Assembly (NCBI GenBank): GCA_028704435.1
Contig: JAQWFL010000009.1
Coordinates: 1-64,000, forward strand
Source: Anaerostipes sp.
GTDB taxonomy: Bacteria; Bacillota; Clostridia; Lachnospirales; Lachnospiraceae
DNA length: 64,000 bases
Reading direction: 5' to 3'
Below the pieces are notes generated by a model. That model was not told the DNA's origin. It made no database searches and saw only the letters and a program-made list of their open reading frames with translations. Made by a program: the position numbers and the translations under genes. Positions within the stretch are counted from its first letter, which is position 1. Each line of letters starts with the position of its first letter. Positions 59,047 through 61,741 of the stretch are shown piece by piece.

Positions 59047-59255
59047 AGGTTCTCCTTTTCTAAATATACTAAGCTAATTTTTATTATACATCTTTTTCTG
59101 TCAAACTTCAATCATTTGTCTCCGTTTATATATGTTTGCGTGGTGGCAATTATAAAAGAAAATTTTTTTGTTGAACTTTCTTCAACATTTATACTGCTTT
59201 CCATATGCAATTACACATGTCTATTTTTAATAAAGTCCTTAATTTCAAGTATGTA

Positions 59256-59287
59256 GCCCGTTGAAGAATATTCAACGGGCATTTTTT
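59256..59287 (+). terminator. Plus-strand intrinsic terminator with no annotated upstream gene
   Basis: GCCCGTTGAA-gaata-TTCAACGGGC followed by ATTTTTT. Confidence 0.8.
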
Positions 59288-59312
59288 ACGTTTACTGTAT
59301 GATGCAATCAAG

Positions 59313-59416
59313 AGTTGTGAAACCCCTCATCGGATGATGCGTTCCCCGATCAAGAACGGTCCTATCTGACTCTGATGAACAACTAAATATTAACCCAGCC
59401 TAATAGGACGAGCTGG
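59313..59416 (+). ncRNA. Candidate pseudoknotted structured RNA/leader upstream of the sigma-like gene
   Basis: Complementary segments AGTTGT/ACAACT, ATCGG/CCGAT, CGTTC/GAACG, GTCCTAT/ATAGGAC, CCAGC/GCTGG, several mutually crossing. Confidence 0.45.
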
Positions 59417-59440
59417 CCAAACCACGAGGAGGAAACTCTT

Positions 59441-59599
59441 ATGGCAAAGGCCGACGAAATTAGGATAGCAGGTCATTGGATTTCCTCCATGTCAATCACA
59501 GGAGGAAAAAACAATGACAAAAAAAGTAACGAACAACCAGCAGTTGATCGATGTGTATATGCCTATCAGCCGCGAAGACGCAAAGGCGATGGGATATAA
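59441..59599 (+). CDS. Small ORF (52 aa) with strong RBS, 3' part overlapping the sigma-like gene in another frame
   Basis: AGGAGG at about 59427-59432, ATG at 59441; MAKADEIRIAGHWISSMSITGGKNNDKKSNEQPAVDRCVYAYQPRRRKGDGI. Confidence 0.4.
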   Translation: MAKADEIRIAGHWISSMSITGGKNNDKKSNEQPAVDRCVYAYQPRRRKGDGI

Positions 59600-60131
59600 G
59601 AGCACCGATATTGTCGTTCGCCACATTGGTGTGAAGAACGTAACCTGCATCAGAACCCAGGCTACATCAGAGTTTGCGGAGAAGTACAACCGCATGCTTG
59701 AGAATGAGCAACGAGCAGAATTCCGTGAGAAACGCTGTCTTGTATCTGACGGAAAAGGTGGATTTATCCGCTGCCCAGAATGCAATCACTGTGACAAGTG
59801 CGAAAAACACCTGGAGTTCAACTTCACAACAAACAAGCCTGTATCACTTGAAAAGCTGACCCAGGGCGATACGGAAGATGACAAAACCATCGATATTGAG
59901 GGCCGCTACGAATCGCAGACAGATATACTGAGCCATATCATTCTTGAAGACCTGATTCAATATTTAGGCACCTTCGAAGGCAAACAATATGACCGCATCT
60001 TCCAGATGCTGTACAACCAGCATGGCACAAAGGAAATTGCAGACGAGCTTGGTTTGGCATGGAGCACCGCAAAGGATGCCATCACAAAAGTTCGTAAGCT
60101 CGCGCAGGAGTACACAAATCTGACTAAATAA
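59514..60131 (+). CDS. Sigma-70-like/sigma factor region 4-containing protein with internal Cys-rich insert (mobile-element type)
   Basis: C-term HTH QHGTKEIADELGLAWSTAKDAITKVRKLAQEY; CPECNHCDKCEKH Cys cluster; RBS AGGAGG just upstream. Confidence 0.75.
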   Translation: MTKKVTNNQQLIDVYMPISREDAKAMGYKSTDIVVRHIGVKNVTCIRTQATSEFAEKYNRMLENEQRAEFREKRCLVSDGKGGFIRCPECNHCDKCEKHLEFNFTTNKPVSLEKLTQGDTEDDKTIDIEGRYESQTDILSHIILEDLIQYLGTFEGKQYDRIFQMLYNQHGTKEIADELGLAWSTAKDAITKVRKLAQEYTNLTK

Positions 60132-60135
60132 CACA

Positions 60136-60179
60136 AAGGAGCCTTGCACCGTCATTTGATTGATGATGCTTGGCTCCTT
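60136..60179 (+). terminator. Hairpin downstream of the sigma-like gene
   Basis: AAAGGAGCC...GGCTCCTT followed by CTTTAT. Confidence 0.6.
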
Positions 60180-60290
60180 CTTTATGCTTATATTCACCCA
60201 AAAAATGCAGTTCAATCAAGCTGTCAACTCAGCACCCCATTTAGCCATTCTGTCATCTCGACCTATGCTCGTCGATATGTTTCCGCGAAG

Positions 60291-60350
60291 CAAAAAGAAA
60301 AGAGCCTTCTGCCGGTCGTTCCTACTGCAATAGCAGGTAACCGGGCAGAA
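60291..60350 (-). terminator. Likely rlmD intrinsic terminator (long hairpin plus T-rich tract on minus strand)
   Basis: TTCTGCCGGT ... ACCgGGCAGAA with AAAAAGAAAAGAG on its left. Confidence 0.65.
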
Positions 60351-60379
60351 AGTCCTTGTTTCAAGCCTCTTCAACACTA

Positions 60380-61741
60380 TTACTTCTGTACTTTAGTCAA
60401 AAGAACGATGCTCTCACAATGAGGAGTTTGAGGAAATAAATCTACAGCCCCAGCCCTTACTACTTTATATCCCGCCTCTTCAAACACTTCCAAATCTCTT
60501 GCAAGACTGGTAGGTTTACAGCTAATATACACCATTTTCTCCACACCAAAATCTATAATCTTGCCAATGGCCTTTGGATGAATTCCGTCTCTGGGCGGAT
60601 CTAACACAATAAAGTCTGGCTTATCTTCTATATCATCCACAACTTTTAGCACATCCCCTGCTATGAATTCACAATTATTAAGTCCATTTAGCTTGGCATT
60701 TTCTTTTGCCGCTTCCACCGCTTCTTCTACAATCTCAACTCCCACTACCTTTTTAGCCACTGGTGCCAGCATTTGGGCGATGGTACCTGTTCCACTATAC
60801 AAATCAAAGATAACTTTGTCCTTTGTCTCTCCTACAAAATCTCTTGCCACTTCATATAGAACTTCGGCTCCAAGGGAGTTTGTCTGGAAAAATGAAAATG
60901 GTGAAACTTTAAATTTCAGCCCTAAAATTTCTTCATAAAAATATTCTTGCCCATACAATAAATTCATTGAATCTGCCTGAACCACATCCGATAAACTGTC
61001 ATTTAGCGTATGTAGAATTCCAACAATCTGTCCATTTAACTTTAATCCACAAAGACGTTCTACAAGAGGCATCATATCCACAGGTTCCTGAGTAGTTGTC
61101 ACAAGATTAACCAATAAATCCCCAGAACATTCTCCACGACGAATGACCAAATGGCGTACATATCCAGTATGCTGCATTTTCTTATAGAAGCTGCACTTTT
61201 TTTCTGTAAAATATGCCAGAACTTCTTGCAAAATTACATTATAATCGTCATTTACAATCTTGCAGTTTGTCACATTTACAATATCATGAAAAGAATTCTT
61301 TTTATGCATTCCAAGAGCAAGCGGTCCATCTTTTATTTCATCTCCAAAAGAAAACTCCATTTTATTTCGATATTCCCAAGACTTTGGGCTTCCTTTGATT
61401 CCTTCCCAAATATGGTCATCCACATAATTTTCATATAATTCCCGTACTTGCTTTTCTTTTATTTTTAATTGATTTTCATAAGAAACGGTCTGATAAAAAC
61501 AACCTCCACACAATCCAAAATGTGGGCACGAAGGTACTGCATCTTCCAGAGAAGAAGGTTCTAGTACCTCAAGTAGTCGAAGTGCTCCCCCACTCTTACG
61601 AAGCTTTGTTACTTGACCCTTAATAAGTTGTCCTTCCACACAGCCTTTGACTGTCATATTTCTATCTTCTATACAAACAATTCCCTTATGAGGAAAGCTT
61701 ACATGGTTGACTCTTCCTTCCACAATGTCTTTCTTTTTCAT
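60380..61741 (-). CDS. rlmD: 23S rRNA (uracil-C5)-methyltransferase (RlmD/RumA family)
   Basis: TRAM-like N-term; CPHFGLCGGCFYQ; FSFFQTNSLGAEVLY; FDLYSGTGTIAQML; VLDPPRDGIHPKAI; YISCKPTSLARDL. Confidence 0.93.
   Translation of the reverse strand: MKKKDIVEGRVNHVSFPHKGIVCIEDRNMTVKGCVEGQLIKGQVTKLRKSGGALRLLEVLEPSSLEDAVPSCPHFGLCGGCFYQTVSYENQLKIKEKQVRELYENYVDDHIWEGIKGSPKSWEYRNKMEFSFGDEIKDGPLALGMHKKNSFHDIVNVTNCKIVNDDYNVILQEVLAYFTEKKCSFYKKMQHTGYVRHLVIRRGECSGDLLVNLVTTTQEPVDMMPLVERLCGLKLNGQIVGILHTLNDSLSDVVQADSMNLLYGQEYFYEEILGLKFKVSPFSFFQTNSLGAEVLYEVARDFVGETKDKVIFDLYSGTGTIAQMLAPVAKKVVGVEIVEEAVEAAKENAKLNGLNNCEFIAGDVLKVVDDIEDKPDFIVLDPPRDGIHPKAIGKIIDFGVEKMVYISCKPTSLARDLEVFEEAGYKVVRAGAVDLFPQTPHCESIVLLTKVQK

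Follow-up and report, generated by a model that had tools for sequence, protein, structure and literature searches.

A predicted pseudoknotted leader RNA related to Rfam family RF02960 ahead of a sigma-like gene near rlmD in Anaerostipes sp.

Introduction

In a 64,000-nucleotide stretch of DNA from Anaerostipes sp. (contig JAQWFL010000009.1 of assembly GCA_028704435.1; the whole stretch is called the window here), a gene encoding a sigma-like protein is preceded by a short region crowded with complementary segments. A first-pass annotation, made from the letters alone, described five exact and mutually crossing pairs in this region, followed by a strong Shine-Dalgarno (SD) sequence and a mini-ORF, and took it for a folded RNA that controls a mobile-element regulator, perhaps an undescribed cis-element of conjugative or defence islands. 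The questions raised by the locus are whether such an RNA is real, whether it is new and how it might control the gene behind it.

All five pairs were found exactly where they had been placed, and the SD and the mini-ORF are present as well. The dense packing is mildly unusual: 104 nt hold seven maximal exact helices of at least 5 bp against 3.1 ± 1.75 in shuffled sequences, 3.8% of which reach seven. A helix of 7 bp, taken by itself, turns up in 15% of shuffled sequences, and the minimum free energy (MFE) of the leader (z -0.13) is no better than that of shuffles and is uninformative. Because the window alone makes a weak case, the decision rests on relatives.

Collection and comparison of leaders

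Relatives were sought with RF02960 in 299 genomes of the family and, with the sigma-like protein or a profile of it as query, in further genomes and in phages. Forty cores were collected from Clostridia genomes, Heliusvirales phages and Streptococcus phages (individual loci carry L numbers), and 30 representatives are less than 80% similar. The leaders were read visually and also scored with a descriptor blind to the sequence of the P2 loop. Most real leaders scored 60-79 and shuffled leaders mostly 0 (maximum 57.5); shuffled whole loci reach 65, so the score alone is no proof for a single case. Alignment of the cores with MAFFT lost the helix register, and the pairing of own and mismatched strands was therefore compared instead of using a covariance model or pair counts. 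RF02960 matches in L010 and from L016 on were judged by eye to be chance. A DNA similarity search in 145 relatives returned short chance matches only, a related-locus search in genome contigs returned no relative, and a plasmid search gave no match.

Relation to RF02960

An Rfam search of 541 nt with permissive thresholds matched positions 59327-59485 (+) to RF02960, the "DUF2800 RNA", with 42.9 bits (E 3.2e-6) over the complete model (positions 1-158 of 158). The Rfam search proposed by the first-pass annotation thus gave a significant match that stays under the curated gathering score of 60.2 bits, which is why a default Rfam scan is empty. When the model was run against the organism's own genome, the window copy (E 4.0e-6) was the sole good match, the second-best match (15.5 bits) lying 27 bits lower.

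The P1 and P2 helices of RF02960, P2 with its 9-nt loop CUGAUCAcc and conserved GAUCA, the linker ACAAgUaAAUA (ACAAnUAAAUA) and the next hairpin are common to the model and the window leader. The long-range helix between model positions 68-74 and the 3' end is poor in the window, where the alignment marks two non-standard pairs. The printed consensus structure of RF02960 lacks the pseudoknot and P5, both of which belong to the fold proposed for the window. The settings also differ. RF02960 precedes an early gene cluster of phages that encodes a DUF2800 protein, and a DUF2800 gene is present at L005 and L116, whereas the window leader is followed by the sigma-like gene and then rlmD, with no DUF2800 gene.

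Judged by sequence and predicted structure, the window leader is a divergent relative of RF02960 and no family member by Rfam's rule. The region is best read as a real folded RNA, a cis-acting leader that Rfam already lists in a narrower form; the description of the element as undescribed is not retained. RF02960 is a catalogued RNA that is functionally unexplained, and a literature search by name found no hits on it.

A type II hammerhead ribozyme (AGUUGU-GAAAC...CUGAUGA-ACAACU) was considered for the same segment and rejected: stem I is missing, there is no Rfam ribozyme match, and CUGAUGA is the P1 3' strand.

Core fold

The 40 cores have a common architecture (Table 1), which in most of them lies upstream of the same gene family. 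P1 encloses the P2 hairpin and, directly 3' of it, the 5' strand of the pseudoknot (PK5). The linker follows P1, and P5 then carries the 3' strand of the pseudoknot (PK3) in its loop. The linker fits the strict pattern ACAAnnAAAUA in 20 of the 40 cores and a relaxed pattern in 29.

Table 1. Features of the sigma-like gene locus in the window
Feature	Position	Strand	Remarks
Terminator-like hairpin upstream of leader	59256-59280	+	GCCCGTTGAAGAATATTCAACGGGC followed by ATTTTTT; -17.9 kcal/mol, z -6.65
P1, 5' strand	59327-59334	+	TCATCGGA; pairs with 59371-59378; descriptor
P2 hairpin	59340-59358 (stem 59340-59344/59354-59358)	+	CGTTC-CCCGATCAA-GAACG; also in RF02960 consensus
PK5, pseudoknot 5' strand	59359-59365	+	GTCCTAT; 7 bp with 59403-59409
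P1, 3' strand	59371-59378	+	TCTGATGA; descriptor
Single-stranded linker	59379-59394	+	ACAACTAAATATTAAC; consensus ACAAnnAAAUA (RF02960 consensus ACAAgUaAAUA)
P5, 5' strand	59395-59399	+	CCAGC; descriptor and comparison
PK3, pseudoknot 3' strand	59403-59409	+	ATAGGAC, within P5 loop; descriptor and comparison
P5, 3' strand	59412-59416	+	GCTGG; in relatives overlaps 5' arm of competing P6/terminator helix
P6/P7 hairpin	59422-59444	+	AGGAG-GAAA-CUCUU over mini-ORF SD and part of AUG (CCA/UGG); -8.0 kcal/mol, z -0.72
Mini-ORF	59441-59599	+	52 aa; similarly placed overlapping mini-ORFs in relatives
P8 hairpin	59474-59516	+	-16.4 kcal/mol, z -4.34
Sigma-like gene	59514-60131	+	205 aa; CxxC-type cysteines, C-terminal sigma region 4-like HTH; phrog_13787-like
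rlmD/rumA	60383-61741	-	Convergent with sigma-like gene; TIGR00479 302.8 bits, cut-off 183.55

A pseudoknot helix of at least 5 bp is formed by the own strands in 30 of the 30 representatives (100%) and by 12% of mismatched strand pairs, although 26 distinct 5' strands are involved. Own strands likewise pair in P1 (93% vs 15% mismatched; 30 distinct 5' strands), P5 (77% vs 34%; 19 distinct) and P2 (57% vs 3%; 27 distinct), figures to be read with helices assigned partly by hand after the pattern had been seen and with many leaders related by descent. Strands that vary while own strands still pair amount to covariation in plain form, with the helices partly hand-assigned. Covariation in homologous leaders, whose absence had been named as grounds for dropping the idea, is thus found, and the core fold of P1, P2, pseudoknot and P5 is a prediction supported by comparison. 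In the nearest relative, L074, the core is almost identical: the pseudoknot is the same, a G.U pair of P1 is A-U (TCATCAGA), and the loop CGAUCA has become UGAUCA.

Chance complementarity in an ordinary 5' UTR would agree with the near-chance helix density and with the MFE of the window. It hardly deserves further credence in view of the RF02960 match and of helices that are conserved while varying in sequence across 30 dissimilar leaders, and by this comparison it is refuted for P2, the pseudoknot, P5 and P1.

The third, fourth and fifth of the pairs first described correspond to P2, the pseudoknot and P5, respectively, and appear with changed sequences in dozens of leaders. Chance is the likely account of the other two. 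AGTTGT/ACAACT is most likely accidental: ACAACT is part of the conserved single-stranded linker ACAACUAAAUA, and AGTTGT does not occur within 60 nt upstream in L074. ATCGG/CCGAT is unsupported outside L074, lies partly in the P2 loop and would compete with the P1 stem. L074 retains it as ATCAG/CTGAT, where P1 or the palindrome of the loop also accounts for each change, and it was not seen in the other cores read. The outer stem P1 and the SD-burying hairpin P8 had been missed. The general reading of the region as a folded, pseudoknotted cis-regulatory RNA ahead of a mobile-element regulator is borne out by the relatives.

Self-complementarity of the P2 loop

The P2 loop of the window has the 4-nt palindrome GAUC at its centre. 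Watson-Crick palindromes of at least 4 nt occur in 29 of 33 distinct P2 loops (shuffles: mean 12.9, maximum 24) and those of at least 6 nt in 23 of 33 (mean 2.9, maximum 10; 20,000 shuffles each). When the representatives are taken together with the known exceptions, the counts are 28/34 and 23/34. The centres include GAUC, GGCC, AGCU, GCGC, UGCA, CGCG, CAUG and AAUU. Of the 19 loops that were read after this rule had been formulated, 14 are Watson-Crick palindromes, two are GACG, one is AAUGUU with a G.U pair (L153) and two are not self-complementary (L152 and L155). GACG is the main exception (L015, L039, L081 and L136), and the loop of L043 is ambiguous in this respect.

Both GUGCAC and GACG, which occur among the P2 loops, are retroviral dimer initiation loops. 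GUGCAC forms a kissing homodimer in HIV-1, and GACG, self-complementary through two G-C pairs, does so in MoMuSV (PMC7357161; PMC516450); in MoMuLV, too, GACG is a self-complementary kissing loop (PMC7357161). The likeness lies in self-complementary apical loops, often with a following A. The loops described here belong to phage and bacterial leaders ahead of a regulator, and their dimer is predicted by analogy only.

A palindrome may also act in DNA, as an operator, a recombination site or a methylation site that happens to lie within a hairpin loop. Each of the tetramers could be a target of restriction or methylation, and restriction-modification (R-M) genes are carried by several of the islands; this reading is nevertheless quite improbable, since the palindrome is centred in the P2 loop in nearly every leader, and the GACG loops and AAUGUU fit RNA kissing and are not DNA palindromes. 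Kissing homodimerization is implied as the best reading of the P2 loop, as a prediction, because pairing within one molecule leaves the innermost dinucleotide unexplained and DNA palindromy cannot explain GACG or the G.U loop. The pattern suggests that the loop has been kept self-complementary by evolution and that two RNA copies may pair with each other. In the window such a dimer would be weak because the palindrome is only GAUC.

Putative expression platform

The terminator-like hairpin ahead of the leader is the only such site in 59050-59520 (shuffles: mean 0.2), and it is a putative insulator of the leader or end of an upstream transcript. Behind the core, the P6/P7 hairpin is weak by itself, and an analogous hairpin is present in relatives. 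The mini-ORF starts 73 nt before the start of the sigma-like gene and ends 86 nt inside it, out of frame. P8 pairs TTTCCTCC (59481-59488) with the SD of the sigma-like gene, GGAGGAAA (59501-59508), and CATTG with CAATG, which covers the start codon.

This arrangement recurs. The SD of the sigma-like gene is buried in a local hairpin (at least four of its five bases paired) in 35 of 37 leaders, often with z < -3. Leaders of the translational type contain a mini-ORF whose start lies some 50-90 nt before the sigma-like gene and whose end, in most cases, falls within that gene but out of frame with it, an overlap that would correspond to the standard geometry of translational coupling. In L074 the gene starts right after the core, and the mini-ORF/P8 arrangement is absent.

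A second set of leaders has an intrinsic terminator, the 5' arm of which starts within PK3 or adjoining P5/PK strands (L009, -39.0 kcal/mol; L011, -33.1 kcal/mol; L075, -30.7 kcal/mol; also L015 and L066). Since the arm is built from these strands, pseudoknot and terminator are mutually exclusive in these sister leaders. No such terminator was found in the window leader, which has SD hairpins only.

Attenuators and translational riboswitches likewise set an aptamer-like fold against a mutually exclusive terminator or SD-burying hairpin. They differ from the present leader in that it combines the SD hairpin with an overlapping mini-ORF, and no ligand is known. An ordinary leader that senses a ligand or protein, riboswitch-like or autoregulated by the sigma-like protein or a phage protein, in which the palindromic P2 loop does not dimerize and instead docks a dimeric protein or makes a tertiary contact within the molecule, is a serious alternative, to which we give somewhat less than an even chance. 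Some input is needed by helices as mutually exclusive as pseudoknot/P5 and P6/terminator, the conserved single-stranded linker looks like a binding site, and most known riboswitches are monomers (PMC7357161). A site for a protein or receptor should, however, keep its sequence, and in the P2 loop the centre changes while self-complementarity stays.

Sigma-like gene and genomic setting

The gene is labelled sigma-like because its region-4-like match is weak (Sigma70_r4_2 E 0.16; TIGR02937 17.1 bits against a cut-off of 42.9) and curated cut-offs are not reached; the protein, whose likeness to sigma factors is confined to the C-terminal helix-turn-helix, matches neither sigma-70 region 2 nor region 4 above them. 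An AlphaFold model of the protein alone (mean pLDDT 42.9) was too poor for a structure search.

The leader and the sigma-like gene lie near rlmD/rumA in the window (59256-60423) and in eight relatives, mostly with defence genes on the opposite side. The stretches fetched from the further genomes L158, L160, L161, L163, L164, L165, L170 and L172 each include an RlmD homologue, which in the cases read converges on the sigma-like gene. On the leader side, type I R-M genes occur in the window, L158, L160 and L163, a Hachiman HamB helicase in L160, Lamassu LmuB-type ATPases in L172 (strong) and in L161, L163 and L170 (weak), and a helicase that PADLOC assigns to type II R-M in L165. The proposed association of the regulator with defence islands holds for the window, L158, L160, L161, L163, L170 and L172, and the regulator occurs in phages too.

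In the Heliusvirales phages L116, L120, L121 and L123, leader and gene stand just ahead of replication genes (exonuclease DUF2800, DNA polymerase). Phages use rlmD orthologues as the attachment site called 'rum', and the Streptococcus phages with the sigma-like gene include records named '_rum'. The 3' end of rum is where phage phi-m46.1 inserts (PMC4288039). This phage shares with the window the sigma-like gene and the leader (pseudoknot AACCUCA/UGAGGUU, loop CUGAUCA); the window element differs in having a type I R-M system with no phage genes recognized alongside. The same layout was seen in the Streptococcus phage leaders L154 (phi-m46.1, mef(A)/tet(O)), L153, L155, L156 and L157. No second copy of the rlmD 3' end was found as an att repeat in the window.

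RF02960-like leaders are thus spread more widely, over Clostridia, Heliusvirales and Streptococcus phages (phi-m46.1 included) and rlmD-site islands, and the islands that carry the leader hold R-M, Hachiman- and Lamassu-type genes. These occurrences suggest that the rlmD site may be a hot spot for defence islands that has a conserved module at its edge; the leader and its gene look like that module of rlmD-site elements.

The window copy might also be a phage-leader fossil beside rlmD with no present function, as its score below the Rfam cut-off, its short palindrome, its lack of a terminator and the absence of recognized phage replication genes beside it would allow. Such decay is unlikely: all core helices are intact at 5-8 bp, P8 is strongly folded, the 205-aa gene is intact, the module lies near rlmD in eight other genomes, and the core of L074 is almost identical.

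Proposed mechanism

The reading that we favour, and hold to be somewhat probable, is that a leader of an RF02960 superfamily gates a sigma-like regulator of mobile elements through its core fold, an SD or terminator switch and a dimer trigger. The parts of the platform are seen in the sequence, and from them we infer their function. PK5 would pair with PK3 in the P5 loop to form the pseudoknot, while P1 encloses P2 and PK5. P8 would bury the SD of the sigma-like gene, which could then be translated only when a ribosome on the overlapping mini-ORF opens P8, and access to the mini-ORF may be set by P5 and the pseudoknot against the competing P6/P7 hairpin. In the sister leaders the same competition would run between the pseudoknot and the intrinsic terminator built from the PK3 strand, which makes the core fold the presumed 'on' (anti-terminator, open) state.

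The trigger is the least certain step. Self-complementary P2 loops may allow two leader RNAs to kiss; dimerization, driven by leader concentration as copy number rises, perhaps together with a ligand or protein, would stabilize one state. That such leaders form a widespread class whose P2 loop evolves solely under the demand of self-pairing, kiss their own transcripts, read copy number or an identical element, and switch the sigma-like regulator on or off through the terminator or the SD in this way is a tentative proposal, and we regard it as rather doubtful. Several points count against the favoured explanation: the window has no terminator, only a 4-nt palindrome, a weak P7 and an MFE no better than shuffles; L074 lacks the mini-ORF and P8; and L152 and L155 have loops that lack self-complementarity.

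The comparison gives RF02960 a pseudoknot and a proposed switch mechanism, and the loop rule predicts kissing dimers through the apical P2 loop. Few functional RNA homodimers occur in nature (PMC7357161). Two points appear to be new, namely the self-complementary but variable P2 loop and the module near the rlmD phage attachment site. If true, a regulator on the border of defence islands would sense copy number through RNA, which would tie the control of the islands to self-recognition by an RNA.

Other leaders and neighbouring elements

A conserved small element, GTCCTGAGCAnGACATTAAACTGCTC, lies just upstream of P1 in L005, L011, L012, L014, L015, L036, L037, L039, L116, L120 and L123, and is absent from the window. 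It is a short hairpin whose loop, GAGCA, is often able to pair with a downstream UGCUC, giving an H-type pseudoknot in some cases. A different recurrent leader precedes the same gene family in L060, L061, L064, L115, L118, L124 and L133. It consists of CGATTGGATAGCTCTTGTGAG..CACAAGGGC plus a AATCACAGGAGG hairpin and is unrelated to RF02960 by eye. The leaders of L117, L119, L122, L096, L128, L129 and L149 have long hairpins and U-runs before the gene without an RF02960-like core, and are possibly a third type.

In L006 (1684-2322) the gene after the leader encodes a sigma-like N-terminus followed by a DUF2971-like domain, an apparent case of recombination behind a conserved leader. In the phage-type loci L116 (4400-4750), L123 (1480-1720), L036, L063 and L075, the leader is immediately preceded by the end of a small, conserved ORF (..YGAH..DLnPSdlpEVFsELYsIe.D).
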